From contig WELB01000063.1 of NCBI GenBank assembly GCA_009602725.1, positions 349,510 through 375,219 of the forward strand: a stretch of DNA of 25,710 nt. The letters are read 5' to 3'. Below the pieces are notes generated by a model. That model was given only the letters and a program-made list of their open reading frames with translations, had not been told where the DNA came from and did no database searches. The translations under genes were made by a program, and so were the position numbers. Of this stretch, positions 5,351 through 25,549 are shown piece by piece; the stretch's first letter is position 1, and every line of letters starts with the position of its first letter. This DNA comes from Spirogloea muscicola (Eukaryota; Streptophyta; Zygnematophyceae; Spirogloeales; Spirogloeaceae).

Positions 5351-5535
5351 AGAGAAGTGCGCGCCCATAGAAAAGAGGGGCTGGCAAAGCCAGCCCCAAA
5401 AAAAATAAATAGACAATGTCCAAAGCCAAAGAAAGAGGAGCCGGAGAAGGACTACACTACAAAACACTGCAGAACACAGAAACGATGCAGAGGAAAGCTC
5501 AGTACCCACGAGTGAGCAACATCAGGTCTGAGTAG
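5340..5535 (-). mobile_element. Severely 5'-truncated LINE copy upstream of LHCII
   Basis: Read on the minus strand, the segment begins with the last codons of the LINE ORF (YSDLMLLTRGY then TGA at 5499-5501). A 3' UTR follows, sharing words with the copy at 22395-22480, then the tail with a 9-bp perfect hairpin (GGGGCTGGC, loop TTT, GCCAGCCCC; 5377-5397) and a CTATGGGCG end. The same ORF end (LLTRNY/LLTRGY) terminates the pieces at 8097, 11560 and 23999. It is therefore a nearly complete 3' UTR with only about 35 nt of coding sequence. It ends about 105 bp before the LHCII start codon. An A-rich AATAAATAG word inside it (about 5403-5413) is TATA-like on the plus strand. Confidence 0.75.
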
Positions 5536-8049: not shown

Positions 8050-8096
8050 AGATGGGCTTGCCAGGCTACACACGCATGCAGATCTGTTCCCGGCTG

Positions 8097-8380
8097 AGAT
8101 GGGCTTGCCAGCTGCATATCTGTCGTTCTTGCGACGACGAGTTTTGGCCTGTTTGCAGCGTGCCCAGGCTAAAGCTTTGCACCAGAAAGCTGGGCGAGCT
8201 CTAGTTGGTGGCAGAAGGGCTTCGTATCTGCCATCTAGTATTCAGGCATCGATTAGCAACTTTTATATTTTGACCCGTGGTTACTGAGCGGGTCAATCTG
8301 CTGTAGGCTATGTAGGTCTTCAGATGTGCTTGCCTTTGTACTTGGCCATTTGGCCTTCGTTTGTTTTAAATACACGAACT
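8097..8380 (+). mobile_element. LINE 3' end, family 1 (5'-truncated)
   Basis: The last about 62 codons (8099-8285, TGA) closely match the C-terminus of the long minus-strand piece at 23999-25549: MGLPAAYLSFLRRRV against MGMPAAYLSFLRRRV, and QKAGRAL and LTRG in common. Similarity continues into the 3' UTR: GAGCGGGTCA and TGCTTGCCTTTGTACTTGG (8327-8345) occur in both. The shared non-coding part shows these are two copies of one element. The copy is open, but only the tail end of an ORF. A 15-bp direct repeat (AGATGGGCTTGCCAG at 8050-8064 and 8097-8111) marks its left boundary. Confidence 0.85.
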
Positions 8381-9720
8381 TCCCCTGAGACAGCCGAGGC
8401 TGGAGGATGACGACTACACATGTTGTTGATGATTTGATAGTGGCCATGTGGAACGCGCTGGCCTTGTGTAATCGTGCAGGTCGACTCACAACGCAGCATC
8501 ACTCTGTGCAAAAGTATGAGCAGTGCTCACTTTTGCTAACCCTGCTGCTCTTTAAACAGTTTCAGGACTTCCAGAACAAATGGGCATACTTGCTGCAGTG
8601 ATACCGCAGGAGTCATCGCATGTTCAATGATGAAATCCAGGTGTGACAGATGCATGAGACGTGCATAAACTGATATCAGACTGTAGCCTTCAATCAATAG
8701 TATCCGATACGGGCTTTGTCGAGCAAAAGTTGCAGCTGACCTTTACTTGGGGCGTTGTCTACAGTGACACGTGTATGTATGTTATGTTTTGAACTTCCTT
8801 CACTTGTAGTAAGATTGGAATTGCTGCAGGGCATCACATGTGTGGGAGTCGCTGGCCATGAGCAATAAGCGAGCACAAGGCTGCTTTTAATTGCGGACCT
8901 TGCTTATGACAAAGTTGTTGCCCTGCGAGCTGGAAGTTGCACTCTAGCAGGACATGCACTTCGCCGTACGAATTGCCAGGTCAAAGTTGCATTGCTCACC
9001 ATGGCTTCTGTCTTAAAAGCACTAAAAAGCACGAAATGTTCGGGAGGTCTGCTAAACATCTTAAAGATGACATGTGGCCTCTCATCGTATGCAGTGCAGG
9101 CCTCGGAGTCATATGACTCGAAGGTCGATGGCCACTAGGGGACAGGCCGAAAGCCCAGGCCTACAGAGGCCAACTTCTAAGTGGTTGATATACAGGTGCA
9201 GCAATCTTCGTAACCCAAGCAGTTCATCAATGCTCCAGACTGTCCTGTTGCATTGCCTCTGACACGATTTGACGTTCTCCTCATGCCAGCTTCTCAGTGA
9301 CTTCGACTTGCTACATAGTCAAATTTTCCTGAAAGCTTACCTTGCAAAGAGCAAGCCCATATAGGAATTCTGTCTACGATGATGCAGGGCCTTGTCATAC
9401 AGGCGAGAATATTCCTCCCAGGAGATTTGGTGCAGTATGCCACTAGAATCGACCAAGAGGGCTGCATGCTTGCGAGGGGCAACGATTGCTGATGTGGTAG
9501 GAGACGGGAGTTTGCATCCAAGTATTCGACAACCTTGCTCATCGTGCCTGACATGTAAGTATTGCAAGCGAGTGTCAAGCAGACATCGCATTGCGATGCC
9601 CAATCAAGCATTGCAACGATTCTCCAGCAAAGGAGAGGCATGAGCAAGGTCCAACTCATTGGGATGTAGTCGAACTGCTTGTCGTCAAAGCAAACCCTAA
9701 GGCTTGTTACAACAAGAAAA
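8381..9720. other. Stretch without a recognised gene
   Basis: Two overlapping minus-strand ORFs (9294-9800, 168 codons; 9337-9603, 88 codons) are the longest readings. Their translations show no motif I can place, and the first runs through a retroelement tail at its start, so neither is called as a gene. The rest shows no feature. Confidence 0.5.
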
Positions 9721-9770
9721 GACGCTTCCAGGAGAGGGCAGTGGCTGTGAGAGGCCGGCCCAGGAAATAG
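9721..9770 (-). repeat. LINE-tail hairpin copy
   Basis: On the minus strand: GGGCCGGCCTCTCACAGCC, then ACTGCCCTCTCCTGGAAGCG. The same words follow the hairpin at 20539-20581, so this is a good copy of the CCTCTC subtype including its 3' end. Confidence 0.75.
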
Positions 9771-10149
9771 TATGTACAAAGCAACAAAACAAGGACGCAA
9801 TCAGTGCACTCTGAAGATAAATTGCTTTCACCGAACAGCTCAAAGAGGACTCTCCACACTGTTGGGGAGAGCACCCGGCTGTGCAAGCATCAAATGTCGA
9901 CATTGCTGAGCAACATACTTTGATACACGGATCAGAATCTTTCAAAGTCTCGGATGGCGCAGTCCTATGCTGGGCAGAGTTGCAGTGTGGCAGTCAGATA
10001 AGGGTGTGATGTAACTCGGTGTATCTGCCGCCATGAGCGGGCTGCGTCTATATCGCCGAGACGATTGAGACCCGCTAGTCCTGTGGAGGTCATCCACATC
10101 CACGGGGCATTCGAGACTAAACGGCACGGCGAGCACTGAACTCGCGTCA
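9771..10149. other. No gene recognised
   Basis: Short overlapping minus-strand ORFs (64-82 codons) without recognisable content, and no repeat seen. It separates an isolated tail from the next LINE piece. Confidence 0.5.
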
Positions 10150-10440
10150 AGGGCGAGCAGGGCGGCCTCAGTACCCGCGGGCCGCTCAGAAGGGTTGACT
10201 TATGCTCCTCTCCATGTGCTCCAGGCGTTTGCGGTGCACTTGCGAGCAGGCGGTTCCGTCTCTGGCTTTAGCGTGCAGATGTCTCTCTAGCTGCTAGCTA
10301 CCCTGACATGCGGCTGTTGGTCTGTTGAGCACTCACTCGTGGTTGCTATTTGTATATTTGCGTACTTCAGTACTCGGCTCTTTAAGCCTTGTCCATTCTT
10401 TGTGGGTCGGCCTCTCACGGCCATCTGCTCGCCGTGAAAG
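10150..10440 (+). mobile_element. Decayed LINE 3' end with tail
   Basis: The DNA follows the better-preserved copy at 22160-22480. Shared landmarks in order are CGGGCCGCTCAG, a GCGGTGCACTTGCG block, a CTGACATGCGGCTG block (22370 has CCGACTTGCGGCTG), CTTGTCCATTCTTT, and the hairpin core at 10403-10420 (GGGTCGGCCTCTCACGGCC). The reading frame is broken by stops and indels. It is the last about 80 codons plus 3' UTR of a LINE. Confidence 0.65.
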
Positions 10441-10550
10441 CTGCTTCTCCGCAGGGAGGGGCAGAAGTCCAGCTGAGGACAGGGAGTGCGGACGAGAAGC
10501 GACGGCTGTTGAAGACGAAGAAGCAGCTCTTCCAGAAGTAAGCTCTTCTT

Positions 10551-10588
10551 AAGGGCCGAGGGTAGTGATGAAGGGCCGAGGGTAGTGA
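10551..10588. repeat. 20-bp tandem duplication
   Basis: AAGGGCCGAGGGTAGTGATG at 10551-10570 is followed directly by a second copy lacking the end (10571-10588). It abuts a partial minus-strand hairpin tail (GTGAAAGCCAGCCCAC). Confidence 0.8.
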
Positions 10589-11060
10589 AAGCCAGCCCAC
10601 AAATGATACCGGAGGAGTCGGAAAGGAGTCGGAATGCGTACAGACCATTAAGGATGCCTGCTCAGAAAAAACCCCCCCAAGAGGCGGCTCTTACAGACAG
10701 AAGATAGGGGTGGGCCATCCAAATGGGGCGAGAGCTGTGAAAAGCCAGCCCACGAAAGATAAGCGATTGCGATTGCGATTGCAATTGCGTATCTGCGAAG
10801 AAAGAAACGGCTCGTTCAGTGTAAGGCAGTGGCTGTGAAAGGTCAGCCCCAGAATGAAGAAATACTCGACATCTCTCTAAGAGGTGCACATCCCGAGTAG
10901 CCAGGTCGAGGAAAGAGAAAGAGACAAACAGCACTCTTGTAAGGCAATCGCTGTGAGAGGCCAGCCCCAAGTACGGAACACTCGTTGCCTGGGCTCGCCA
11001 GTCACAGCCATCGCCCTCAACTGGAAAGATTTTCCTTCCTTGTGCTGGCCTCTCACAGCA
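10585..11060. repeat. Cluster of six LINE-tail hairpins
   Basis: Hairpin cores at 10585-10600 (-), 10733-10752 (-), 10830-10850 (-), 10950-10968 (-), 10991-11025 (+) and 11043-11059 (+), roughly 40-150 bp apart. Each has the GGGCTGGC...CACAGC core or its complement, and several carry the following GCCCTC...TGGAA. No LINE coding sequence is seen between them. A short (GCGATT)3 run lies at 10763-10780. It looks like repeated insertion of minimal tails, or later local duplication. Confidence 0.75.
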
Positions 11061-11160
11061 TTGACTTACATTTGGAAAAACTTGAACAAGGCTGTCGTGC
11101 TATATCCTGTCGACTGCCTATTTGTGTCGATCTGACTAGGACAGCTGACTTGGCTTAATA

Positions 11161-11400
11161 CGTGGCCTCCTAGGCTGACTCATCCACTTTCGTGTGTGAT
11201 TCACGCTAAGGATGGAGGACCACTTTTCTCTCTCCGTGGCTTCCTAGGCTGGGTCATACAAGTTTGTGTGCGATTCGCGCTAAAAATGGAGGACCACTTC
11301 TCTCCCTCTCTCTCACTCTTCCTTCCTTTCTATCTCTGGCTTCCTAGGCTTGATTCAAGCTAAGGATGGAGGACCACTTCTCTCTCTCTCTCTCTCTCTC
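11161..11400 (+). repeat. Degenerate tandem repeat, three units of about 40-100 bp
   Basis: Three units begin at about 11161, 11233 and 11336. Each has TCCTAGGCT near its start, then a CGTGTGTGATTC-like block in the first two, then GCTAA..ATGGAGGACCACTT and a CT-rich end. The third unit lacks the middle. CT expansion of the last unit makes the microsatellite that follows. Confidence 0.8.
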
Positions 11401-11420
11401 TTTTCCCCTCTCTCTCTCTC
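11378..11420 (+). repeat. CT microsatellite
   Basis: Nearly pure CT dinucleotides interrupted by TTTTCCCC. It grows out of the CT-rich end of the tandem repeat to its left and runs directly into the minisatellite to its right. Confidence 0.9.
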
Positions 11421-11424
11421 GCGG

Positions 11425-11550
11425 CGACCGCTCATTAAATGCGGACAACAGCGACCGCTCCTCCAATGCGGACAACAACAACAACGACCGCTCATCAAAT
11501 GCGGACACCAGAAACAACGACCGCTCATCAAAGGCGGACGACAACAACAA
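11425..11550 (+). repeat. 33-bp minisatellite, four units
   Basis: Units of 27, 33, 33 and 33 bp start at 11425, 11452, 11485 and 11518, each beginning CGACCGCTC and containing GCGGAC and a CAA-rich end. Unit lengths are multiples of three and in one frame encode 11-residue DRSSNADNNNN-like repeats. The start resembles GTCGACCGCTCCAA of the LINE copy at 22560-23136 (residues VDRSN), so the repeat may have grown from LINE coding sequence. Confidence 0.85.
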
Positions 11551-11555
11551 TGGAG

Positions 11556-11860
11556 CGACTACAAGGCCGATTGTGGATCGTACTTCAACGCCGCTGGCTC
11601 GTGGGCTCAGGTATATCGTATGCGCTTGTCCGTCTCCCTCCAGCGGTCCATGGCCCACGCCTTGCATCTGCGTGCTGGCCGTGCCCTCGCTGCGGCCTTC
11701 GGCTTTCGTCAGGGGGATAGTTTTCCGGCAGCTAGTCTGTCGGATGTGAGGCTCCTCACTCGTAACTACTGAGTGGTCCATCCTCCCCCGTTCTGCCATT
11801 TCTTCTTCAGGCCCCGCAGTCGCTGCTTAGCTCGTAGTTTGGCCCCTTCGAACCTTGTCA
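11556..11860 (+). mobile_element. LINE 3' end, family 2
   Basis: The ORF end (to TGA at 11770-11772) reads YFNAAGSWAQVYRMRLSVSL, then AHALHLRAGRALAAAFGF and LLTRNY. It matches the piece at 19500-19715 (DFNAAVSLAQVYRMRLS, AHALHLCAGRALAAASGS) and more distantly family 1 (AHALHQKAGRALAGG). The 3' UTR words GTGGTCCATCCT and TTTGGCCCCTT.AACCTTG (11838-11860) are shared with 19720-19795. The hairpin expected next is missing, so the copy is 3'-truncated or interrupted. The coding part is still open, but far too short to act. Confidence 0.85.
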
Positions 11861-12009
11861 ATTCTTTCAGATCGTGGAACGGACGGCTGAAGATGACCAT
11901 CTTACGGTTGAGTCGGCCACTGAGACAGGCCCACGACAGCCGGCCATCCAGCTTAGCCAACCAGCATAGCCAACGGCCGAACCGGGCCTATCAGGCAGTA
12001 GTCCTTTTT

Positions 12010-12100
12010 CCGGCTCCTCTTTCTTTGGCTTTGGACATTGTCCATTCTTTTTTGGGCTGGCTTTGCCAGCCCCTCTTCTCTATGGGCGAGCACTTCCTTT
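12010..12100 (+). repeat. LINE-tail copy with perfect 8-bp hairpin
   Basis: CTTTGGACATTGTCCATTC is followed by GGGCTGGC-TTT-GCCAGCCC (12054-12072), an exact 8-bp inverted repeat with a 3-nt loop, then CTCTATGGGCGAGCACTTCC. The same arrangement occurs on the minus strand at 5352-5450 and, with one mismatch, at 20285-20358. No LINE coding sequence is attached. Confidence 0.8.
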
Positions 12101-13384
12101 TCTATCAGGCAGCGCTAGGATCTTCGCCGCGCCCGGCCCAAGTCGTAGCGAGCGGCCCTTGCAAAGCAGTCGGCTTTGCAAGTCTTACCCTCTTGCCACG
12201 AGCCACGCCTGCGCCAACGCCGCGCCATAGAAGCGTAGAGCCTAGGGCAGGAGCCGCAGCAGCTAGTAAACCTTCGCACGGACCCGCTGCGCGACTGCAA
12301 GAAGTCGTGGTGATTCTGTGGTGAGCAGCATTGAGTATTGTGCTGCGTATCGCAAGCTCCACACTACATCGAGCACTAGTTCTCAGATCGCATCAGTCAA
12401 GGCTGTGCATTGAGGCCTAGTAGCATCATCATCGATTGGCATTCACTGACCTTGCACAAGTGGTCATATTGTGGACAAGGTACTGCATATATGCTCGTGT
12501 GTACGCTCTTTCATATTTCTCGCATTTCAAGATACACTTGTATGCTTGCATCGCACCGGTGAACCAGTAGACAGTGGCCATGAGTCACTCAGTTCAGGAT
12601 ACTAGATACAACTGCTCAGTAGTTCATCGTCCCTTAGTTTGGGAAGCTACGAATTCTACTTCGGACTGTTCTTACCTTTCTTCATATGTTGTGAGACTAT
12701 TAACGATTCTCAATGTTGGCCTCTCGTCGGACTGTTTTCTTTCAGCCTGGCCAACGGGATTGACAAATCCATTCGATATTTTACATGTGTAGACTAGCAC
12801 GTCAGTATTTGTCGTTATCTAGACTAATCGACGTCATTAGGCAATTGACGCCTTCTCGCATGACAAGGCCTACAAGGGCCGGAAGGTGCAGATTTTACAA
12901 GCTACTACTTTTGGTCCTTCATCGAAACTTCGGAAACCCAACAGACCCGAGACGCTCGCAAGCTTGTGGCCCACCAGGTCGGCCAAGCCGCTGACATCAG
13001 ACCGCCTCGAGCACGTGCAGGCAATATGCCACGCGTCGGCTCCGAAGAGTCCTGCAGGCCTTACACGTGTCGTGCTTGTGCGCATCCGGGTGGGGGACTA
13101 GATGGGCAGCCGCAGAACGTTTCTCCTGCTGCCCCTAGGGAATGTAGGAGTCATCAACGCCCCCAGCTGAGCCATCTGGCCCAATCGGCTCGACGGGGCC
13201 GACCCTTGACCCCCGAAGCCCCGCTGCCCGCCCGTCGCGGGCAGCGGCTACGGAGGTCGCGCCAGCGTTGCGCCACGTGGCGCGCACGTGCAGTCAGCGG
13301 CGCCCCACTCGAGACAGCGGTTGAGTCGATGAGTCGTTACTAGTCGTCCATCTCAGCCCACCGCCGCGGCCGCCGCCCGCCGCG
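12101..13384. other. Stretch without a recognised gene
   Basis: Overlapping short plus-strand ORFs (12785-12994, 12886-13101, 12966-13343) have codon-like content but no domain I recognise. They may be remains of a retroelement 5' part or the distal 5' flank of the next gene. 12101-12780 shows nothing. Confidence 0.45.
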
Positions 13385-13408
13385 GCCGCCGCCGCCGCCG
13401 CCGCCGCC
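13385..13408 (+). repeat. (GCC)8 trinucleotide run
   Basis: Eight pure GCC units inside a longer GC-only block (about 13360-13412). It lies about 420 bp upstream of the start codon of the membrane-protein gene, within its GC-rich 5' flank. Confidence 0.95.
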
Positions 13409-13791
13409 GCGGGTCGCGGAGCTCGGTCTCCGAGGGGCTCAGGCGCAACGCTCGCGGGGCTGTGCCTGCTTCCATGGGCCGGCAAGGCACGCTGACCCTT
13501 CCGTTGGCGTGACGGTCGCGGGCCGCCCTCAGCGCCGCGCCGAGGAACGCGAGACACAGTGTTCCGCCCGTGCTGCCGCCGTCGCGGCAGACGACCTTGC
13601 CGCCTCGCAGCGCAGGCCCTGCAGCGTGGCCATGGTCCGGCGCGGCGGCCGGCACGGGCCCCCGAGCCGCCTCCAGGCCACGGAACGGAGCCGGGCTCAC
13701 GGCAAGGAGCGGCTGCGGGGCTGGCTGCGCGTGGGCTGATGCTCGGCAGCCTCTAGCTCGGAAGCTCGCGGCTCCTCCGTGCCGGGAGGTC
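13409..13791. other. GC-rich 5' flank of the membrane-protein gene
   Basis: High-GC sequence with long Arg/Ala-rich ORFs on both strands (for example 13353-13826 minus, 157 codons). Their content is trinucleotide-repeat translation and GC-biased codons, without a domain. I read it as promoter and 5' UTR of the downstream gene. Confidence 0.5.
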
Positions 13792-13818
13792 CGGCGGCGG
13801 CGGCGGCGGCGGCGGCGG
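13792..13818 (+). repeat. (CGG)9 run in the probable 5' UTR
   Basis: Nine pure CGG units end 10 bp before the ATG at 13829, so they probably lie in the 5' UTR of the membrane-protein gene. They are complementary to the (GCC)8 run at 13385-13408. Confidence 0.95.
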
Positions 13819-13828
13819 CGCAGCAAGG

Positions 13829-16800
13829 ATGTCGGCGTTCTCGAGCTGCTGGTTCCCGCCGACGTGCCTCAGCCTTACCGTTGTCGGCCTCGTCAAAGGT
13901 GAGTCGTCCCGACGCGGTAGACCAGGCTGCGATGCATGGGGCTGTCCGAGACCTCTCAGCCATGCTTTGGCTGGGGCTCCGCCGGTCATTATCACTGCCT
14001 GCGGTGCACCGCCGGAATGCTTGAACATTTTGTTGAGGGCTGGCGGCCAGGCCGCCTGTCTGCTAACCTGCTGACTGCGGGAAGCTGTGGCGCTGCCTCG
14101 TTGAGCTGCCAGGCCTGCTCATCTTCCCGCTCGCACTTGTCATCCTCGTCGTCGGCAACACTCTTGTCGCGCTCGGCCTCCTGCCGCTCACCTTCGCCAT
14201 GACCCTCTACTCAGTCGCCTTGTGAGCTCACACCTGATTCCCACCTCTGCTTTTGCATCAGCCCTCGTAGCACGTGCATGGCGGACAGTCTCGGCGGACA
14301 GCCCAGGCAGGTCCATGCAATGGTTGCAAGGCAATTGCTGCTGGAATACACTCATGGCCACAGCAGCATTGTGCGCCAAGTAGCGTAGGTGTAGGCTACA
14401 AGCACTGCCAGGTTCAGGGCGCCTGCATGCCCAACACAAACCAAGCATCAGTGCGAACAAATTTTGGCCTGTCGTCTGTCAATAATTGCAGCAAAGCCGA
14501 CGATACCTGTCAGGCACTGAGTTTTGACGCTGAGGCACTTTCTCTTCCAGGACGAAGCAGCTGAGGATGGTCCAAAAGGCGGGAGCTCTTATCTGCCTGC
14601 CAGTTCTGATTCTTCTCTGGCCAGTCGTCGTCCTTGTCGGCAGCTTGTTTGTCAGTGTCATGTATGGCTTCTTCGTGCCCCAGATTGCCACATTCAAGGC
14701 CGTTGGCGAGAACCGGGAAGACAAGCTGCACCACGTCCTCCGAGTGAGCACTTTGCCAGCCAGTTAAAGGCTTTTGCCACTGCATGCCAGTCCCCTACAG
14801 CTACAGTCGGTCCCACTCCACACCACACAGGAGGCATGCCGCGCAACATCGTCAGAGATGTTGGGGGCACCTCTTAATCACAAATCCGAGGCGCCTTTCC
14901 ACAGGATGGGTTTGTGGGCCAGGTCGGCGTTTGCGTGTCCGTTGTGAAGGACTTTGCCGATTACAGCTACAACAGCTACCCATGGTACCTAAAGAACCTT
15001 CGCACCAAGGAGGCAAAGGTGGAGAGCGTCTCGAGCATGATCAAGTGAGCGGCACTGTTCAGTTGTGGGGCAAACTGTGTCTCCCTGGCTGGCTGTGCCT
15101 AACAATACCACAATTCACTGTTCACACACTTAAGGTGGTGCTGAGCTTTGAGTAGGTCAACTGTCCTTTCTCAATGGACCTTGAGTCATTTGAAGTCTGT
15201 GCCTAGTAAGCAAAGCATCTGAGATGACAAACAGGCACAAATTTGTGGGCTTCTGCATGCTTGTGCCCTGCACCAGGCAATGATTGTGCAAATCAATGCT
15301 GTACTTGCAATCATCTCATCTGAGTTTATTGTTTGCTTTGTCAGGATCAAGGTATTGCCGGGGTGCCTCCTTGTCTGTGTGTGCGGGCTCCTCGCTGACA
15401 CAGTCCTCCTCACTGCCATTGCAATTGCCAAGAGCCCAGTGCTGCTGTGGCGTGGCTGGCAGCGGCTGTTTGAGTCGGCGATTGAACGCCAGGGGCTATG
15501 CCTCGAGGCCACCTGCCTGCCGTGCTCCTTGCTCGTGCTCCTCCTCTGGCCTATCGCTGTGCTTCTATCCATACTCGGCGCTTTCATGCTCAGCCCCTTT
15601 GTGGGGATGTATGCCGCGGCTATCGCATACCAGGTGCTCCACTGTGCACATGGCCAGCTCTTCGCGAAATCCAATCAGCCTTTGATACAGTGCCCCTCTC
15701 AGGCTGAGATTGAATTACACAATTGCCACAGGGTATCAAAAGCCTATTGCATACCCACTTGTCTGAAGCTTGTATGAACTTGTCTTTGGCAGGAAAACTC
15801 AACAAAGATGGGGTTTGCTTACATCATGACCGTGGTAGCGGAGTTTGATGAGTACACAAACGAGCTGCTGGACATGAATGAAGGGACAGTTTTCCCCAAG
15901 TGAGCACAGCTTGCTCTGAGGACTGCATGCCTAATTGCTCTTGTGTATTCTGATTGCATGGTCAATTGCCTCAGCAGGATATGGTGTGTCTGTCATCTTG
16001 CAGGTATGGGTACCGGCAGGATGCAGGGTCATCTTCACAGTCCTCCTCTGAGGCCGCCTCGGAGCAGGGTGCCAAAGTTGCTGCATCGGAGGAGCAAGAC
16101 AAGGTGGTGGAGCAGCCAGTCAACCGTCAGTCACTGGAGCTGACGCAGCAGCAGCTGGGGCAGGTGCCAGTTGCGATGCCGCTTGATGGTGACCAGTCCA
16201 GGACCAGCATATGGCAGGCCATTGAGAAGCAGGCAGCGGGAGGCGGGACGCCAGGTCGGTTGCCTCAGCGGCAGCGGTCGACATCGTTGTCGTCGAGGCT
16301 CTCGGGCCTTGAAAGGCAACGCTCGGGGCCAGCCGTCATACTCCACCGACTTGCCCGCACTGCCGCCGGCAAGCCAAGGCCAGCACAGCATTTGGCCATG
16401 AAGCAGGTACCTGCTAAGCTACAAGTCTCGTATAGAGCAAAATTGGCATTGTGAATTTGCAACGGCACCTTGAGTTGCAGTATGAGTAATCCGCATTCTG
16501 CGGCATACTCATGTGTCAATGCTTTGTCGAAGCTGACAGCCATATCTGACATAGTGGAGGAGAAATTTGTTTGGCAGCTGTGGAGCAGCTTGCTGGGGAC
16601 GTGCAAGATGATAGGGCACGAGCTGGTGGATTGTGGTGTAATTGGACCGAGGGAGATGCAACGGTGGACACTTGAGTGGGCAGGCCCGAATATGCGGAAT
16701 GGCTCAGTGGGCATCCCGGCCCTCTGCCTGCTTCGCACGCTGCTCCAGTCCTACAAGCGCAACTCGGCAGGCCTGGTTTTCTGTAAGTCCTTTTCTCGCA

Positions 16801-17673
16801 GAGCATTGATGAGCTTGACTATGCTACGCACACACAGCTTTTAGAAAGTTGCGCAGTCTTCCATTTGCTGATAGCTACTGCTGCCACTTGCTGGACCTCT
16901 CCATGCTTTGTCCACAGGCAAGTCCCTTGTAAGATGTATTGCCTGTCTAGGTCTACCTTTAGCAGGCGCCTTTGTTTCTATGTACCACTTCTTAAGGCCT
17001 CTTCATTCGCTCATGTGACATCTCTGTATTGCGCCGTGACCTATCGTCCCTACAGGTGATGGCCACGAGCTGCTGGCCAGCAACAAGCCGGACCATCGGG
17101 TGGTAGAGTGGTTCTTCAATCCGCTCATGGTGATCAAAGCTCAGCTGCAAGCGGACCAGCTTTCGCCACGAGAAGAGCGCTACTTTGAAGGGCTTGTCCT
17201 CTCGATGGGCGATGAGACAGTCTTGGAGAGGTGGCTTCAGGACAAGGATGCAGCCCCCCCTACTGAAGCTGCTCGTAGCAGCGAGCTCCAGGGATTTGCT
17301 CGCAGGTGAGAGAACCTGTCTGTAGATTCGTGTCATAACTGGGGTTGTCCAGATGTATAACCGAACGTTGGACATGCTACATTTTGCGTTTACGTTTACT
17401 AAAAGCTGTCAAGCCTGACTCGTCGCTCCTGCCTCCTAGCAGAGCCATGAAGTTGAGGTGAAATTTTAAGGTCAATTAGGCAGCCACCTCACATGGCAAG
17501 TGAGACTTGTACATGCTTTCAGGTTGCAAGGCATTGCTACCACCTTGGCAACATTCCCCACATTCCGACGGCGATTCCACGGGCTTGTTGAGGAGTTGGG
17601 TCCCTATGCTCGGGCCCAAAGATTGCATCGAGCAACAAGCGTGCCAGCGAATGTAGACAACCTGCCAGTATGA
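13829..17673 (+). CDS. Conserved plant/algal multi-pass membrane protein of unknown function, ten exons
   Basis: Reconstructed exons: 13829-13898, 14113-14221, 14551-14743, 14905-15044, 15345-15633, 15793-15899, 16004-16406, 16533-16782, 17056-17305, 17523-17673 (TGA); 653 aa with consistent phases and GT-AG introns. Similar to an uncharacterised land-plant membrane protein family as I recall it. Family-like blocks are VVGNTLVALGLLP, MYGFFVPQIATFKAVGE, LPGCLLVCVCGLLADTVLLTA, LLLWPIAVLLSILGAF, MGFAYIMTVVAEFDEYTNELL and, near the C-terminus, WFFNPLMVIKAQL and FPTFRRRFHGLVEELG. About four to six hydrophobic segments lie within residues 24-267. Residues 303-437 (exon 7) are a Gln/Ser-rich linker without obvious family similarity. 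The soluble C-terminal part (438-653) follows. The exon 8 acceptor (TCGAAG at 16532) was chosen because it keeps phase; it is the weakest junction. Function unknown. Confidence 0.82.
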
Positions 17674-19149
17674 TCCAGAGCTCAAGTGTGTGCAATTATA
17701 CTTCAGGAGCACTGGATATCACTAATTAGTGCTGCAGATGGTGGCTGCAGCATGCTGATCGCACAACTCCAGTCCAAGTCTTGTGTTAGCGCACGTCTCA
17801 TCCAGGATTTGGCGAACTCTATAAGCCCCCAATCCCCCCCTCACCCCCACCAACAACTCCTCCTTTTTACTGTTAACCACCGTGCCGCCTCGGCTCTTAG
17901 TTTGCACCTTGACAAGCCACGCTGGCCGCTTTCCACCATGATCTGTTTGTAGCAGTGATGAGTCAATTGCGGATGCTTGTCTGTGATTAGTAAAGTAGAG
18001 GGCATTCCGTGTTTGGCAAATGTTGCCAAGGATTGCTAGTAGCAGTCTTGGTTGAATCTCCCAGCATTTGTGGGGGCCTACAGGTCCATTACAAGCTGGC
18101 AGCAATGCAGTACAACAAGCGAATGGGCGGAGCCTTTTAGACACGACGCCCTCCCCATGCCTAAATGGCACCTTTAATTGCTAGATATCTGACACACTAC
18201 ACTTATGTGCAGCCTTTTGCACCGTCTATGCTGCCTACCGTGCTTTTCTGTCGCCTCAGCACCTTAATCTATGTTACTATGCTGACTCTCCACGAATATA
18301 TTGCGCAGACTGCTTGACAAGGGGCCTTTATCTTCTTGCGCTTCTCTGCGCAGCTTGTAATTTGATCTCCTTCCAAGCTGGCACCAGGCAGTGGGGGAGG
18401 TTTACGGTGTTCATGGAGTGGAGGTTGTGTCCGTGGAGTCGTTCGTCTCATAACTGGGCCTCACGTGCACCTATGCAATCATGTCTTTCCACTTCAATTT
18501 AGAAGTCTCTCAGAGATGATGGCAAAGCCAACCAGCAGTCCTCATCAAGCTCAAGCAGGGGTGCCAGTGCCTCACGGCTGTGCACCTTGGGCTCTCAAGT
18601 GGCAGCGGTGACTTGCCATGGCCACAGAGATGAGTCATAGCACCCTCACAAAATCAGAGTGCGCCAGAAATTTTGCTACTGCAGGTGCACATCAGTTGCG
18701 CCCACTTTCACTGAATTGTCCAGACCCTCAGAATATGAGGCCTCCCACCAGTGCACACCAGTGCCACAATTGCTAAGGAAGCCAAAAAGCGGGCGTTTTA
18801 GCGGCAGGCACGAGAAAAGTAGTTAGGAAAATTGAAAACATGGAATTGATGCAGTGCAGCCGAGAGGGGCATGCTTGTGTACGAATACGTGAGCCAGCAA
18901 GGCCCGCATACTTGGACTGTGGCGGCTCATCCTGCCAAGCTGTTGCCCAAGGATGGATTGCGAGCTCAGTTAACCCTGACCTCTGCAACTTTTGGCACGC
19001 GTGACTCCACCGTTGTGGCCGGTGAAACAGGATTAATGTCGTCGAAACATACAAGCGTGGATTTCCAGGACTCGTAGTCTGCCTTCGGTCGTCATAAGCT
19101 CAACATGGAGAGCCTGTTGGTGACATTTCTGTTCTTTAACTATTCCATT
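17674..19149. other. 3' flank and intergenic stretch, no gene recognised
   Basis: ORFs are short (longest 149 codons, minus, 17722-18171) and without recognisable content. The first TGTAA after the membrane-protein stop is at 18356-18360, about 680 nt away; whether it is used is unclear. No RNA gene or repeat seen. Confidence 0.5.
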
Positions 19150-19279
19150 GACCTTCACAGCCGTCTCATCATGGAGTCAACGTGGCCCGCGCCTGCAAGG
19201 CTGCATTCCTGGGCAGCTGGGCACAGGTCGCCGCTCCCCTGTCCCAGCTGTCCTGGCTGGCTGTGCCCTCGGCCCCTTA
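19150..19279 (+). mobile_element. LINE fragment, region after the reverse transcriptase
   Basis: Reads HGVNVARACKAAFLGSWAQV and then APLSQLSWLAVPSAP, matching VGGLGCRSREQTAQAAFLGC and then WHQVASPLPLRFPCLAGPP in the piece at 23999-25549. This segment follows the RT thumb in many LINEs. It is cut off at about 19275 by a tail element. Confidence 0.75.
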
Positions 19280-19345
19280 CATTCTTTTGGGCTGGCCTCT
19301 CACAGCCACCAGTCAATTTGGAAGTGTTGTTCCTTGCCCCCTTAG
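19272..19345 (+). repeat. LINE-tail hairpin inserted in LINE coding sequence
   Basis: CCTTACATTCTTTT, then GGGCTGGCCTCTCACAGCC at 19289-19307, then a diverged tail. It directly follows recognisable LINE coding sequence, whose continuation is missing, so it marks an insertion or recombination breakpoint. Confidence 0.75.
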
Positions 19346-19439
19346 GAAGAGCCACTTGCTTCTTTCTTTAATAGCCGCTCTTTTGTATCAGCAACCGCAT
19401 TCTTTCCTAGCGCTTCCTCGTGCACGGCAGTCGCGCCCT

Positions 19440-19830
19440 GGAGCAGGCGGCAGCTGATGTTGAGACCGGCCCGCTGCCTTTCCATGGCTTGCGCGGCGCG
19501 CTGTGTCCCGCAGGCGAGGTGAGCAGGCTGACTTCAATGCCGCTGTCTCGTTGGCCCAGGTCTACCGCATGCGCCTGTCAATCTTCCTGCAGCGGTCCAT
19601 GGCCCACGCCTTGCATCTGTGTGCTGGCCGTGCTCTTGCTGCAGCCTCTGGCTCTCGTCAGGGGAATTGTTTCCGGCAGCTAGTCTGTCGGATTAGAGAG
19701 TCCTCACAGGTAAGTTCTGAGTGGTCCATCCTACACCCGTTCTGAGATAGCGTTTTAGGCCCCTTCGTACTTTGGCCCCTTTCAACCTTGCAATTCTTCT
19801 CGGGCTGGCTTATCACAGCCCTTGCCCCCC
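19440..19830 (+). mobile_element. LINE 3' end, family 2, with tail
   Basis: From about 19490: LARRAVSRRRGEQADFNAAV, then SLAQVYRMRLSIFLQRSMAHA and LHLCAGRALAAASGS; the frame then drifts before the LLTR end. The 3' UTR (GAGTGGTCCATCCT, GGCCCCTT.AACCTTG) and the hairpin (GGGCTGGCTTATCACAGCC, 19802-19820) follow in the order expected. This copy best shows that the hairpin belongs to the LINE 3' UTR. Confidence 0.85.
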
Positions 19831-20183
19831 TTTGGAGAGCCAATTCTTCTTCCATGGGCCCCCATTGGGAGAGCCACTCCTTCCTTCCCATGGGCGAGCA
19901 ATTTCCAGGCGGCCCTCCGCTCAGCCCGCGATGTGCTGCTGGCGGCCCACACCGACCTGACGGTGCTCAGACGCGATATATAGAAGAAGTGGCTCTCCCA
20001 ATGCGAGAGACGTAGCGTCGGTGGAGAAGGCGGCTATTGACCAGGCGGTGGCGCTCCTTCCCCAGGACGACTTTCCCCGAGCTCTTGTCGGCCTCCTCCC
20101 CACGGGCGCAGCGTGGCTGACAGCGCTCCCCATCTGACGCTGCGCTGACCATGCCGGACGCTGTCTTCCGGACGGCTGTCTAA

Positions 20184-20358
20184 TGCCTCTCTGGTTACTC
20201 AGACTTGCTGCTGCTCACCTGTGGGTACTGAGCTTTCCTTTGCGTCGTCTCGTGTCTAGCTGTGTAGCTTTTCTTTTCGGCACCTTCTTTGGCTCTTTGG
20301 ATTTTGTCTATTCGTTTTGGGCTGGCTTTGCCAGGCCCCTCTACACTATGGGCGAGTA
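20184..20358 (+). mobile_element. About 175-bp LINE insertion nested in LINE coding sequence
   Basis: Starts with the diverged last codons of the LINE ORF (ACTCAGACTTGCTGCTGCTC), then the 3' UTR (GGTACTGAGCTTTCC, AGCTGTGTA), then the hairpin (GGGCTGGC-TTT-GCCAGGCCC, about 20319-20337) and the CTATGGGCGAG end. It separates FRTAV from the HPLC...CKCG part, which are nearly contiguous in the copy at 20747-21780. Confidence 0.75.
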
Positions 20359-20524
20359 ATTCTCTCTGGTCCTTCACCCGCTCTGCTTCGCTGATGTGGT
20401 GCAGTGCAAGTGCGGAGCACGTCATGCCAACGCTGCGGAGTTGGCTGCGCACATGCTTCGCTGCGCGCACGGGGGAGAGCCGACCGGGTCTCACAACCTC
20501 CTGCAAGATGGCATAGTTGGCGTG

Positions 20525-20584
20525 TTCATTCCTTTTTCTGGGCTGGCTTCTCCTAGCCACCGCCCTCTCCTGGAAGCGTCGTTC
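20525..20584 (+). mobile_element. 60-bp minimal tail insertion
   Basis: Hairpin tail (TCTGGGCTGGCTTCTCCTAG, then CCGCCCTCTCCTGGAAGCG) lying between GIVGVF and KAGYTV; the copy at 22565 has GIFQEGGYTV without a gap. The frame is kept through 20 extra codons. GTTC with a TTCCT-like run occurs at both ends (about 20524 and 20580), a possible target-site duplication. Confidence 0.78.
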
Positions 20585-20746
20585 TTCCTGAAGGCCGGCT
20601 ACACCGTGGGCTCGGAAAACACGTCTGTCATGCCTTAGTATAGCTGGGGTTTGACGGTCGTCTCCATTACGCGACGCGCTGACCTGTTCGCCATCCCGCC
20701 CGGAGGTGGGTCCCCGCATCATCACCAGCAATAGCTGGAGTGGCAG

Positions 20747-21780
20747 ATGGGATGCCCTTTCACCTCCCTCTCTGACGTTCGCAGAGACCTTCTCCGCACC
20801 TTCCCATCACTTGCGGCAGATCAGGTCGACTTTGCGGCGTGGGCAAGATGCTCTGACCTGAAGGCTCAAGCTCGTTTAACGCGCGCAGCCAATGAGCAAG
20901 CCGTAAGCCACCTCCAAGCTCTGCTCAAGGAGGATGGGCGTGGGCTCTCCCGTCTTAATCCATCAGCTCTCTGGGGGCGTCGGAGTGGCTCAACGCTTTG
21001 CCGATTAGCGAATCCCTCCGGCTCTCCGACGACCTCTTCCGGACGGCTGTCCACTACCATTTCGGCCTCCCTCCACTATGTTTGGATGGCATTCGACAGT
21101 GTGAATGTGGTCATCGTTCGGAGGATGAGATCTCTTTGGCAGCTCACATACTTCGATGTGTTGAGGGAAGTGAACTTTATGCCTCCCACAATCTCCTCAG
21201 AGACGCTATGTATGGCGTGGTACGTGAGGCAGGTTACCATGCGACCATGGAGGTGCCGGGCATCATGCCGGTACTCCAGAAGCGCGGCAGACCCTACATC
21301 AGGCTTCTGGTTGTGGTTGTGACTCCCCGGAGCGGTGGGCCGCGTCTCTTTGATGTCGTTCTCATCGACGCATTCCAACCAGGGGCACCCACACCGTCCG
21401 TGCCAGGTTGAGCGACACATCATGCGGAGAGGAAGAAGGAGAGGCACTAAACAATGACCACCCCCGGGGCGACCACTTCTTCCCATGCGCCATTGTCATA
21501 TACACCGGCTTCGGAACAAAATGGTCTTCCCTCCTCCATCGCCTGGATGCTGCTCTGCATGTCGATGCCCGCCGATGTAGTCGGGCGGGTAGCCTAAGGC
21601 ATTCTAGCGTCCCGCAAGCCATCATTGCATGCTAAAGAATGCGGTATCATTGAGTTTACAGTGCTCCCAGGCACTTGCGAAACACCAGCGTGCTGGGCGT
21701 GCATTAGCCCAGGCTAATGGCTTTTGTGGTGGTGATTTGGCTCCTCCGCTTAGCTTGTTAGATATGCATGTGCTCGGGGA
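20747..21780 (+). pseudogene. LINE C-terminal half, second-longest copy
   Basis: Begins DVRRDLLRTFPSLAADQVDF (aligning with SIRDSAICSFPSLLSIL of the minus-strand copy), continues through QARLTRAANEQAVSHLQALL, shifts frame near 20970, then EWLNALPISESLRLSDDLFR, LPPLCLDGIRQCECGHR, the zinc motif C-x-C-x12-H-x3-C (AAHILRC, complete), HNLLRDAMYGVVREAGYHAT and PRSGGPRLFDVVLIDAF. After a stop at 21409-21411 it resumes with HPRGDHFFPCAIVIYTGFGT and ends near AKHQRAGRALAQANGF. The Arg/Asp pair of the nuclease motif is lost (IRLLV). Clearly decayed. Confidence 0.85.
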
Positions 21781-21871
21781 TAGCAGTGTCCCCCTTAGCT
21801 AGCTCATTACCCCGTAACAGGACTCTTGTAAGGCTAGAGTTGGCCTCCCTTTCAGTATCATGCGCACTGCG

Positions 21872-21932
<61 letters not shown>
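21872..21932 (+). repeat. CT microsatellite
   Basis: About 60 bp of CT dinucleotides with one CCC interruption. Its right edge touches the left end of the next LINE piece. Confidence 0.95.
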
Positions 21933-21935
<3 letters not shown>

Positions 21936-22490
21936 TCGCGGCCGTGGTAACTACCGACTCCGTCAACTCCCCATCCCCACCAAGTCGGCAACTTAAGCAG
22001 TGCACAAAGTTGGCAAGCTGCTAGCGGAAAAAAGCGCAAACACGCGGATCACCCTGCCGGTGATGAGTCTGTGGTGCTGGCAGTAGACGTGCACGGGCGT
22101 TTGGCAGTCGGTGGCTGGACTCCTGCAGCGGCTGGCACGGCGGGCCATCGATTGTCGGCAGGGACAGCAAGGTGAGCTGCCAGGCTTCAACGCCACCGGG
22201 CCGCTCAGGGCGCGCCTTTCTCCCGCTTGCCCAGATGTTCCGCATGCGGCTGTCCGTCTCCTTCCAACGTTCCCAGGCTCACGCGGTGCACTTGCGGGCA
22301 GGCCGTGCTTTGATCGTCACTTCTGGGTTTCTCATTGGGTGCCTCATTTGCAGCCGCAATTCTCCGACTTGCGGCTGCTGACTCGGGTTACTAAGCTCCC
22401 ATTTGCTGTAGTCTCTTGCATAGCTGTGTGCTTTTGGCCCTTAAGACCTTGTCGATTTTTTTGGGGCTGGCATTTCACAGACCCCGCCCC
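21933..22490 (+). pseudogene. LINE C-terminal piece, 5' end at a CT tract
   Basis: Immediately after the CT run the sequence reads IIAAVVTTDSV (copy at 22565: VIADVVTTDVV), then in another frame KHADHPAGDESVVLAVDVHG (other copy: KHADHPAADEFVPLAVDCTG), LLQRLARRAI, GFNA, FRMRLSVSFQRSQAHAVHLR, AGRAL and SDLRLLTR. The 3' UTR and hairpin (22464-22480) complete it. Several frameshifts and an internal stop are present. It ends next to the start of the following copy, suggesting nested insertion. Confidence 0.83.
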
Positions 22491-22564
22491 TTCGACTGTT
22501 TCGAATTTACGAAACCTTTTTGGAAGGCATATTTTTCTGGAGAAGCCCCCTACTCTTTGCCATG

Positions 22565-23136
22565 TGAACTCTTCCGGACGGCCACCCATCGCCTGTTGGG
22601 TCTCCCCCCGCCGTCTGCTTGGCGTGCTGCAGTGTGTGTGGGGAGCGGTCGACGGACCCGGCGGAGCTGGCGGCGCATATCCTCCGCTGCGCCACTGGAG
22701 GCGAACGTACAGCTGCTCACGACCTCTTCCGAGACGCAATGTTCGGCATTTTCCAGGAGGGCGGATACACGGTTGCGGTGGAGAATACGACTGTCATGCC
22801 AATCCTCCACGGACTCCACACGCGCGTCGACCTGGTGGCGTCCACGCCGGGCGGCGGCGCGCGCGTGATTGCTGATGTGGTCACCACTGACGTGGTCGAC
22901 CGCTCCAACCCGGGGCTCTCTATGGGCGAACCCTTCCACTATGCCTCGCGGGCTGGCCACGCTGCGGCGAAGGCCGCTCGCAGCAAGGCGGCCAAACATG
23001 CCGACCACCCGGCTGCAGATGAGTTCGTACCCCTGGCCGTGGACTGCACGGGACTCTCGGGACCCAGTGGCTCGACCCGCTGGCCAGGCTTGCGCGGCGC
23101 GCTGTGTTTCGCAGGCAAGCGCGGCCGGATTAACTG
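22565..23136 (+). pseudogene. LINE zinc-motif and nuclease-like region, well preserved
   Basis: Starts CELFRTATHRLLGLPPP; after a frameshift, CSVCGERSTDPAELAAHILR plus C (C-x2-C-x12-H-x3-C), HDLFRDAMFGIFQEGGYTVA, then RVDLVASTPGGGARVIADVV (Arg-Asp, then Asp 15 residues later), SRAGHAAAKAARSKAAKHAD and DEFVPLAVDCTG. This matches the REL-endonuclease pattern (K/R)PD-x(12-14)-D/E preceded by a CCHC motif, as known from R2-like elements. It ends at LARRAVFRRQARP, where a minus-strand tail is inserted. Confidence 0.85.
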
Positions 23137-23760
23137 GTGGCTAGGAGAGGCCAGCCCGTGTTTCAAAGTGGGCCGGAATTTGTGAGAAGCCTGCCCTAAA
23201 AGGATGGACAAAATCCAAGACTCTTCCAGTAAAAGGCGATGGTGCTGTGATTTGCCAGCCCAGACCTTGTGCATTCTTTTGGGCCGGCCTCTCACAGCCA
23301 TTGCCTAGCTTCGGCCCCTTTGAACCTTGTAAATACTCAGGCTGGCTGTTCACAGCCCTCGCGCATTCTGGGATTGCCACTTTGTTTCACGGCCCCCGGC
23401 CCCCTTCGTGAGAGAGAGACGCTCTGGGAGAGCTCACTATTCTGTTCTATTATTTGGAAGAGCTGTTTCTTCTGAAAAGATGCACAAGGTCAAGAAGAGC
23501 CGGAAGACAATAAGTCGGAGAATTGCAGGAGAAACAAGGCAATGTCAGGCAATGGCTTTGAGAGGCCAGCCAAATGTACAAGGTCTGAAATGGCCGGAAT
23601 GTGCAACAAGCACAGGACGAGAGAGACTCTACTTGACAGAGGCCGATGGCCTCAGTCGGCCAGCCTACAAATATGACCAAAGTTCGAAGGGGCCAGAAAA
23701 GAAGTGAGTACTTCTAAGATAAAAGACTCTTCCAGTAGAGGGCGATGGCTGTGATTCGCT
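23137..23760. repeat. Cluster of seven LINE-tail hairpins in both orientations
   Basis: Cores at 23137-23156 (-), 23240-23262 (-), 23279-23300 (+), 23339-23356 (+), 23549-23572 (-), 23647-23668 (-, diverged) and 23740-23755 (-, partial). Several keep neighbouring words of the tail: CTTGTGCATTC before the core or ACTCTTCCAGTA..GG(C)GATGG in the complement. No coding sequence lies between them. Confidence 0.75.
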
Positions 23761-23904: not shown

Positions 23905-23998
23905 TGGAGTGTATTGTAAGAGATGGAGGGCCTGTGTGGCCAAGTACAAAGGCAAGCACACAGACAAATGTGCATCACCTGCTGCTAAGCTGACCCGC
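23905..23998 (-). mobile_element. 3' UTR of the long minus-strand LINE copy
   Basis: On the minus strand GAGCGGGTCAGC follows the stop codon, and TGCTTGCCTTTGTACTTGG (within 23937-23958) lies some 40 nt further on. Both words, in the same order and spacing, follow the ORF end of the copy at 8097-8285. Similarity fades before about 23905. No hairpin of the GGGCTGGC type is seen here, so family 1 has a different tail. Confidence 0.75.
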
Positions 23999-25549
23999 TC
24001 AGCGACCACGAGTCAGCACATAGAGGTCGCTAACTGATGCCCAAATACTGGACGGCAGTCGACAAACTCTTGTGCCACCAGCTAAGGCTCGACCAGCTTT
24101 CTGGTGCAACGCATGAGCTTGAGCTCGCTGCAGACAAGCTGACACTCGACGTCGCAAGAATGACAAGTAGGCTGCCGGCATGCCCATCTGAGCTGGAAGC
24201 ATATCCTCACGTCGAGCATATCCCAGACTTGCAATTTTCTCCAGTAGGGTATGGAAGCGAGGACCCATGCAGCCGAAAGTGTCAATCGCGGCTGGTAGGA
24301 GGTGGTCACTGCGGGGGTAGTCAGAGTAGTGTAGGAGCTTTCTCTGCTCTGCACCTCCCACTGCGTGGCCAGCAATGTGAGTTGATGCGGAACTCTTGTA
24401 CGCCTCCGTCACAACCACGTCAACCAAGGCTCGTGCGCCTCCGCCAGGATGTACACCCACAATGTCCAGGGTGCGACGGTGATGGCGTCCCTGAGCATCC
24501 GTGGTGATGGGCATTATATTCACTTCCACAATGGCGCGGTAGCCGGCGTCGCGCATGAGGTCCGCCAGGGCGTCCCGTAGGAGATTGTGAACTCCCACCA
24601 CTTCAGGGCCTGTGGGCCACCGCAGCATGTGGGTAGCGAGGTCTCCACCCTCCGCGCGGAAGCCGCACTCACACTGATTTACTCCGATCAGGCAGGTCGG
24701 GGGCAGGCCAAGGAACAGCTGGAGAAGCGTCCGGAATGCTTCGGGGCTGATTTTGAAAGCGTTGTGGATGGCGTGTGTTGTGAGCCAGTCTGTTGCCCCA
24801 GGTGTTGCGAGCGATGTGAGACGTGCCAGACTCCTTGGATTGGTCCTGACATCTGGCATCGTCCTCAACGACTTGCGACGCTCGTTCTCAACTGCAGCAA
24901 CGAGTCTGGCCTGTGCCGCTTTGTCTAGTGCTTGGGCAAGCGCTGAGAAGGGGGTGAGAATGGATAGTAGGGAGGGGAAGGAGCAGATTGCTGAGTCGCG
25001 GATGCTCCTCAGTTGCACTTGGAAGGCGAAGGAGCCTTCCTCCACCTCGGCTGGAGGGCCAGCCAGACAAGGGAAGCGCAAGGGAAGAGGGGAGGCAACC
25101 TGGTGCCAGCAACCAAGAAAGGCTGCCTGCGCCGTCTGTTCACGTGACCGGCAGCCCAGGCCGCCCACTCGTGTGGGAAGGGATGCCTGCAGGGAGGATG
25201 AAGGTGAGGGGAAGGATGGGCGATGAATTAGGGGAGCCAGCGTTTGCAGCAGGGAGGTGTCGAAGTCCTTGTACAGCTCGCCCACTATGTCCGTTGGGGC
25301 GACTGTCCGCTGCAGGTAGCCCGCCCGTTGGCTAATGCAGCGAGTCAGAACTGCCAGCGCCAGCTGCGGATCTCCAAGGAGAGGAAGGGAGGGAAGGGGA
25401 GCAAGGTGTTGCTGCAGACGTTCACGTAAGTCCTCCGCTACGTGGGATGGTGTGCCAAGGGGAACTTTTCGAACAGCCAGCCCGTTGGCAGGGGTCTGGC
25501 AGCCTGGTGGGAGCTGGAGGTTGGTGGGGAGGCCCTGCTCTGAGGGGCC
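23999..25549 (-). CDS. Non-LTR retrotransposon ORF, C-terminal part (RT thumb, zinc motif, REL-like nuclease), 5' truncated
   Basis: Open for 516 codons from just after a stop (25550-25552) to TGA; no start codon is needed because the 5' part is missing. Order: post-RT thumb region GLAVRKVPLGTPSHV, LLGDPQLALAVLTRCISQRA and GYLQRTVAP; GGLGCRSREQTAQAAFLGCW; a charged spacer; TDWLTTHAIHNAFKISPEAF; a zinc motif C-E-C-x11-H-x3 where the last Cys is Trp; HNLLRDALADLMRDAGYRA; RRTLDI then 14 residues to DVVVTEA; RKLLHY; HLLPAAIDTFG; and a basic tail ending LTRGR. The RT palm with its catalytic motif is absent. Arrangement resembles the C-terminus of R2-like REL elements. The long frame suggests recent arrival, but the copy is incomplete and presumably immobile. 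Confidence 0.85.
   Translation of the reverse strand, partial: GPSEQGLPTNLQLPPGCQTPANGLAVRKVPLGTPSHVAEDLRERLQQHLAPLPSLPLLGDPQLALAVLTRCISQRAGYLQRTVAPTDIVGELYKDFDTSLLQTLAPLIHRPSFPSPSSSLQASLPTRVGGLGCRSREQTAQAAFLGCWHQVASPLPLRFPCLAGPPAEVEEGSFAFQVQLRSIRDSAICSFPSLLSILTPFSALAQALDKAAQARLVAAVENERRKSLRTMPDVRTNPRSLARLTSLATPGATDWLTTHAIHNAFKISPEAFRTLLQLFLGLPPTCLIGVNQCECGFRAEGGDLATHMLRWPTGPEVVGVHNLLRDALADLMRDAGYRAIVEVNIMPITTDAQGRHHRRTLDIVGVHPGGGARALVDVVVTEAYKSSASTHIAGHAVGGAEQRKLLHYSDYPRSDHLLPAAIDTFGCMGPRFHTLLEKIASLGYARREDMLPAQMGMPAAYLSFLRRRVSACLQRAQAHALHQKAGRALAGGTRVCRLPSSIWASVSDLYVLTRGR

Follow-up and report, generated by a model that had tools for sequence, protein, structure and literature searches.

In the 25,710-nucleotide stretch of the Spirogloea muscicola genome given above (contig WELB01000063.1, positions 349,510–375,219; hereafter the window), a short hairpin recurs on both strands, and it is very probably a part of the 3' end of related long interspersed nuclear elements (LINEs), many of its isolated copies probably being LINE insertions truncated at their 5' ends. 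This interpretation is carried by the place of the hairpin within the LINE 3' end, by a fixed 3' end and a graded 5' end among its copies, by duplications of the target site and by a pyrimidine-rich junction. The assembly carrying the window comprises 153.1 Mb in 471 contigs.

Two versions of the hairpin core were used for searching, core 1 (GGGCTGGCYTYTCACAGCC) and core 2 (GGGCTGGCTTTKCCAGCCC). With up to three mismatches, core 1 occurs at 15 places in the window (4281, 9743, 10404, 10733, 10831, 10949, 10991, 11042, 19289, 19802, 20540, 22464, 23139, 23281 and 23554; shuffle mean 0.01) and core 2 at three (5378, 12054 and 20319; shuffle mean 0.01); as this core is almost a palindrome, two of the three appear on each strand. 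To these 18 places a search with four core variants adds 23339, within three mismatches, and 10580 and 23243, within four, giving a total of 21, and fainter copies are present at 23166 and 23725–23754. The original prediction, made from the letters of the window, of about 20 copies is therefore borne out. Across the whole assembly, core 1 was found 16,330 times with at most one mismatch (8,158 and 8,172 on the two strands) and core 2 8,611 times (4,280 and 4,331), and the reversed patterns that served as controls yielded no match. Together, the 24,941 near-exact cores correspond to one per about 6 kb on average.

The sequence downstream of the core was used to define 3'-end types, labelled for this analysis as A, B, B2, D, E and E2. 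Core 1 is found in types A, B, B2 and D and variants of core 2 in E and E2, with the stem GGCTG/CAGCC common to all. For 84 copies from the window and 40 fetched loci, out of 116 present at up to three mismatches in the same sequences, similarity around the core runs for about 25–30 nucleotides (nt) downstream and then stops, and upstream it fades gradually. The hairpin lies within the last 50 nt or so of related LINE families, at least six as counted by 3'-end type, which show a common layout: an open frame ending in SDL..[TS]R.. before its stop codon, 64–112 nt, the hairpin, 20–23 nt of family-specific sequence and a pyrimidine run.

This layout was followed most extensively for family D, where the 60-residue LINE C-terminus encoded at 11590–11769 gave, as query, 150 scored matches with 93–100% identity among 17,360 first-look candidates. 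When 600 base pairs (bp) around the end were fetched for 40 of the 150 matches, the hairpin was found to start 90–112 nt past the stop codon in 30 of them, and two were masked by N. The spacing in the other types was obtained from a motif search over the fetched loci for frames with the same ending, the rows being grouped by the analyst, and amounted to 64–70 nt in type A (2/2 ends), 80 nt in B (one end), 80–82 nt in B2 (two ends), 71–112 nt in E (9/11 ends) and 84–103 nt in E2 (8/11 ends). The hairpin is conserved at this place in the 3' untranslated region (UTR) in family D and in five further 3'-end types, as it is in LINE 3' ends of the stringent type. Moreover, the protein C-termini are related between types, for example with 43 of 60 residues identical in the comparison of D with E and 32 of 48 in that of E with B, and the 3' UTRs between stop codon and hairpin are 44–68% identical in global alignments.

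One hairpin-bearing copy (L146) carries an 833-codon frame that ends in SDLRLLTRTY, and 97 nt separate its stop codon from the hairpin. It encodes a reverse transcriptase, as does a LINE, matching RVT_1 (Pfam E value 7e-18), and the same is true of L043 (E 7e-19), a member of a related family, F, with which it shares 47% identity over 749 aligned positions. A profile of four such proteins, compared with solved structures, matched R2 proteins best (E 1.1e-8), with LINE-1 ORF2 scoring lower (E 0.009), and a CxC..HxxxC motif is located at the C-terminus, past the reverse transcriptase. A structure model of the C-terminus had a pLDDT (predicted local distance difference test) score of 38 and was not used; a restriction-like endonuclease fold there would be putative. 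Some of the long open frames among the LINE matches may be runs of N, as in L144 (G000:C131:228900-233420), which consists mostly of N with LINE pieces on both sides and may represent an assembly gap or a withheld stretch.

Family F is represented in the window by a 516-codon open frame at 23999–25549 on the reverse strand, belonging to a related LINE with a different 3' hairpin. Nine of the 88 matches listed for this frame fall in a 1,267-codon open frame, and 12 of those listed share a bit score of 1022.8 against the window copy, which suggests recent activity. The motif GGCC..GGCC occurs at 35 of 38 stop-anchored family F ends, and the GGGCTGG hairpin lies within 130 nt at two of the 38. 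The shared hairpin was therefore rejected as a part of this family, and not every LINE in the window is marked by it; the different hairpin occupies a similar place, so that a hairpin is retained there despite the change of sequence. At one locus (L050), an E-type LINE seemingly has a family F LINE within its 3' UTR, since 123 nt past the F stop codon the hairpin of E is found. In the window, 8081–8295 and 23991–24205 form an inverted pair of 215 nt with 76% complementarity, and the segment at 8.1 kb may be another 3' portion of a family F element.

Insertions were exposed by comparing fetched loci with relatives having the same sequence uninterrupted. From 142 candidates, those with a possible duplication of 2–25 nt and an insert of up to 300 nt were considered, many of them spurious as the tails repeat. 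The eight resolved insertions, of 23–181 nt, all stop at a family 3' end and their starts differ; seven of the eight empty-site pairs show exact target-site duplications, varying in length from 6 to 12 bp, a proportion that is not an unbiased rate because the eight clear cases were chosen by eye. Inserts of 181, 85, 67 and 52 nt (L102, L036, L059 and L082) are accompanied by exact duplications of 8, 6, 7 and 8 bp, respectively, and one of 120 nt (L031) with a 7-bp duplication holds two tails and may represent two events. The 43-nt insert (L030), which starts exactly at the hairpin base, has no exact duplication, TTCTTG and ACG being shared with a gap. The remaining two, of 28 and 23 nt (L069 and L105), carry duplications of 12 and 11 bp; they start downstream of the hairpin and hold only sequence 3' of it.

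The extent of truncation was determined for 153 tails not selected for the hairpin, leaving out 74 tails that had served to choose loci, and also locus L041, which overlaps the window. Reach upstream from the tail anchor was at least 31 nt in 76 tails, 22–30 nt in 21, 19–21 nt (the hairpin base) in five, 14–18 nt (the 5' arm) in four, 7–13 nt (the 3' arm and loop) in 20 and 0–6 nt in 27, where some of those at 22–30 nt are longer copies with another T-tract length and some of those at 0–13 nt are, by eye, decayed or chance matches. No single pile-up of 5' ends was seen among the 153, and a fixed 3' end combined with variable 5' truncation is the pattern of a LINE. The common 3' end, the differing starts and the target duplications fit target-primed insertion with 5' truncation, and the same pattern argues against a miniature inverted-repeat transposable element (MITE), an introner or a short interspersed nuclear element (SINE) with fixed ends. 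Mapping of the ends, as the original prediction had advised, thus yielded a fixed 3' end and graded 5' ends with none in common, and the stop-to-hairpin spacing, the graded truncation and the duplications support its inference that the hairpin is a LINE 3' tail and that isolated copies are insertions with extreme 5' truncation.

At the junction, each of the first eight positions past the family end is 75–100% pyrimidine in the seven sets examined, of which F is one and of which E and E2 overlap; the exception is a single position in A, at 61%. Beyond these positions the composition is that of the background. The T/C run is part element tail and part target, the two being inseparable in these data. 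We propose that the element RNA would end with the stop codon, 64–112 nt, the hairpin, 20–23 family-specific nt and a short T/C-rich tail, and that the LINE protein would most likely bind the hairpin region and most likely cut a pyrimidine-rich target. Reverse transcription would then be primed at or just past the T/C tail, in the manner of target-primed reverse transcription, and copying would often halt early, producing many insertions that carry the 3' end only, at times less than the hairpin, and these would constitute the isolated copies.

Several results weigh against this interpretation or parts of it. Eight of the 40 family D ends lack a hairpin in the 90–112 nt range, where it is interrupted, displaced or absent, types B and B2 are based on few ends reaching a stop codon, and L145 gave no Pfam match. 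Furthermore, an RNAalifold consensus of 38 copies, chosen and aligned by the analyst, consists of a 5-bp stem nearly constant in sequence, and covariation was not found among them, none of the five consensus pairs having changed on both sides; in L098, an A-U pair replaces G-C just outside the five. RNA structure is therefore not proven by covariation, and the compensatory changes that mark the stem of a stringent-type LINE 3' end were not found. Of the 3' ends, E and E2 alone folded clearly better than shuffled sequences (z -4.1 and -4.6), with values of -0.6 to -1.1 for A, B, B2 and D, and of -1.7 and -1.9 for two F ends. In E and E2 only, a second predicted helix encloses the hairpin, for example at 12022–12096 and 5354–5428, with none of 200 shuffles as good; as a general feature this helix was rejected, because in 655 of 720 matchings of 5' and 3' strands across families pairing was no worse than in the true combination, and shuffled 5' strands were as good in 200/200 cases for D, 134/200 for A, 200/200 for B and 38/200 for B2. 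Within 60 nt, the proportion of neighbouring tails lying on the same strand is above one half (p 0.011), but it does not exceed two thirds (p 0.88), a value treated below.

Since neither covariation nor a common wider helix was found, recognition of the hairpin by the enzyme rests on analogy, by which the reverse transcriptase would recognise it. The constant stem may reflect RNA structure rather than sequence alone. The earlier description of a stem that is kept while the loop changes agrees with the 38 aligned copies, in which the stem letters are almost constant and the loop letters vary. Its extension to a structured RNA is a possibility, but given the lack of covariation the sequence alone may be what is kept.

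Neighbouring tails up to 60 nt apart comprise 35 pairs on the same strand, 16 convergent and no divergent ones, and the same-strand share is 35/51 within 60 nt, 52/72 within 100 nt and 100/153 within 800 nt. A share of two thirds is expected because element length bars divergent pairs at short range, and at the two larger distances, too, the observed share is compatible with it (p 0.38 for 100 nt and 0.73 for 800 nt). Self-seeding, in which new copies enter older tails, is not supported as the cause of the clusters, since the same-strand share fits the two-thirds expectation; that new insertions might land in the T/C runs of older copies and so build clusters is a guess.

Four other explanations for the hairpin were considered. 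It may be kept simply by descent, or as sequence, with no role in recognition and with the T/C tail alone directing priming; a stem that is constant without compensatory changes and a pyrimidine-rich junction common to all seven sets would agree with this, but the stem is constant across types whose 3' UTRs have diverged to the extent given above and whose last 20–23 nt differ, and the family F ends keep another hairpin in a similar place, so that we consider it unlikely. One or more SINEs that borrow the LINE tail and are moved in trans by the LINE enzyme could make up most of the isolated copies, and the very high copy number would suit them, as would the many copies sharing less than 60 nt. 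In our sample, however, there is no common 5' end, left ends are graded and the long copies continue into LINE coding sequence. ARAGORN, in its bacterial setting, found no tRNA in the window or in loci L001–L040, Rfam gave no match in the window at gathering cut-offs, and a fixed 5' head with an internal RNA polymerase III promoter was not found, although the promoter boxes themselves were not searched for. A SINE origin is accordingly judged quite improbable.

The nearly palindromic core 2 might recall a MITE, or another DNA transposon with hairpin ends, but only a single end is fixed, exact duplications range from 6 to 12 bp and copies extend into sequence that codes for reverse transcriptase. 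The original prediction named fixed ends on both sides and terminal inverted repeats as the mark of a MITE; by eye, these were not seen in the eight resolved inserts, for which a MITE is refuted, and in general it has next to no chance of being correct. Practically no weight can be given either to an introner-like, intron-creating unit whose acceptor would be TCACAG or GCCAG. Such acceptor-like words are contained in the core, but its position is internal: six of the resolved inserts contain it and run past it to the LINE end. By eye the eight inserts do not span GT to AG, their ends lying away from the core and off splice sites, though occasional use of the core in splicing may occur. If the hairpin is taken as a LINE 3' end, a further and rather doubtful possibility is that the constant stem would act as a recognition code held in common by a whole guild of LINE families in this genome, whose enzymes would accept each other's RNA through the hairpin while the terminal 20–23 nt diverge. 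In this view the pyrimidine loop of the hairpin would also be a hot spot for the end of reverse transcription and for joining to a pyrimidine-rich target. The hot spot was suggested by the 20 of 153 tail-anchored copies whose start lies in the 3' arm or loop, compared with four in the 5' arm, about seven of the 20 being decayed or chance matches by eye.

As originally claimed, the hairpin follows the end of a LINE open frame at 5378 (motif search) and at 19802, 20319 and 22464 (by eye). The first of these is a family E2 end at 5354–5501 on the reverse strand, identified by core and motif search, in which the stop codon of a frame ending ..SDLMLLTRGY is followed by 102 nt, the hairpin at 5378–5396 and the family end CTCTTTTCTATGGGCGCGCAC. 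The others lie on the forward strand: a degenerate family D C-terminus with 3' UTR, hairpin (19802–19820) and family end at 19539–19843; an E2-type LINE end (..YSDLLLLTCGY, stop codon at 20229–20231 by eye) with hairpin 20319–20337 and family end at 20188–20361; and a LINE C-terminus (..SDLRLLTR..), about 70 nt and the hairpin 22464–22482 at 22214–22500. On the same strand, a hairpin at 10404–10422 lies about 75 nt past a degenerate LINE C-terminus (..PDMRLLVC before the stop codon, by eye), and at 11590–11772 a family D C-terminus (..SDVRLLTRNY) has a 3' UTR that is interrupted near 11866, ahead of its own hairpin. Adjoining this C-terminus, 11148–11550 contains tandem repeats of 74 nt (two copies) and 33 nt (about three copies).

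Further copies on the forward strand are found at 10991–11009 and 11042–11060, with B-like and B2-like downstream sequence, respectively (types by eye), at 12022–12096 (family E2 3' end, hairpin 12054–12072), at 19257–19327 (family A 3' end, hairpin 19289–19307 with no mismatch), at 20508–20582 (family B copy, hairpin 20540–20558, within an older LINE coding remnant as located by eye), at 23281–23299 (core search) and at 23339–23357 (D-like, core variants). The reverse strand carries an old copy with D-like downstream sequence and three mismatches at 4281–4299, a family B copy at 9719–9793 (hairpin 9743–9761, core search), weak copies with four mismatches at 10580–10598 and 23243–23261, a D-like copy at 10733–10751 (core search) and copies with B2-like downstream sequence at 10831–10849 (type by eye) and 10949–10967 (core search). 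Also on this strand are a hairpin (23139–23157) from a short copy of family A with its start at the hairpin base, a B2-like copy (23554–23572) and a family B-like copy at 23725–23754 that begins inside the hairpin loop (TCACAGCC..) and retains the 3' arm only. Elsewhere in the window, 6384–6797 encodes an exon of a chlorophyll a/b-binding protein (Pfam E 3.8e-13), resembling many such chains of plants and algae, and therefore points to a host of the green lineage. Runs of CCG and CGG trinucleotides at 13361–13410 and 13792–13820, about 400 nt apart, could pair together.

Explained as LINE 3' ends and their debris, such copies need no annotation as new SINEs, MITEs or introns. They also offer natural variation for the long-standing question of which part of a LINE 3' end is recognised by the enzyme, the stem being kept in much changed surroundings, and the insertions of 23 and 28 nt with duplications of 11–12 bp indicate that copying can be confined to a very small part of an element. 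A literature search covering titles and the starts of abstracts of the records listed, with most subscription journals outside its range, gave no description of these elements, which is not proof that they are undescribed.

Zepp, from Chlorella and Coccomyxa, is a green algal LINE with copies nested in one another, a likeness to the clusters seen here. Its tail is given as (A)n among green algal L1 elements in one survey (PMC3747384), whereas the tails here are T/C-rich. According to this survey, LINEs and SINEs of green algae form pairs that have their 3' ends in common and carry tails of short repeats, (CTTT)n among them, and the RandI/Dualen LINEs and SINEX elements of Chlamydomonas resemble our elements as green algal LINE 3' ends, a likeness by description and not by clade placement; unlike them, no SINE partner was found in our sample. 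With R2-like LINEs, which carry a restriction-like endonuclease, our elements share the best profile match and the C-terminal CxC..HxxxC past the reverse transcriptase, although the spacing of the knuckle differs from the CX2-3CX7-8HX4C given in PMC5678591 and, unlike for R2, no single target site was seen, the insertions occurring at pyrimidine-rich sites. R2 is described, in PMC10499050, as binding a small core of its own 3' UTR, and 3' UTR stem-loops are reported, in PMC5135761, to be essential for retrotransposition in SART1, UnaL2, ZfL2 and R2. Like these stringent-type LINEs, the elements studied here have a 3' UTR stem-loop near the 3' end, which in UnaL2, by the same account, is followed by a short repeat; unlike them, one stem (GGCTG..CAGCC) is common to at least six 3'-end types with different terminal 20–23 nt, and its function would be assigned by analogy. 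The repeat is ordinary in kind, consisting of LINE 3' ends and 5'-truncated debris and adding new members to the stringent-type LINE 3' ends, and what sets it apart is how dense it is, how short some of the insertions are and that several 3'-end types have one stem in common.

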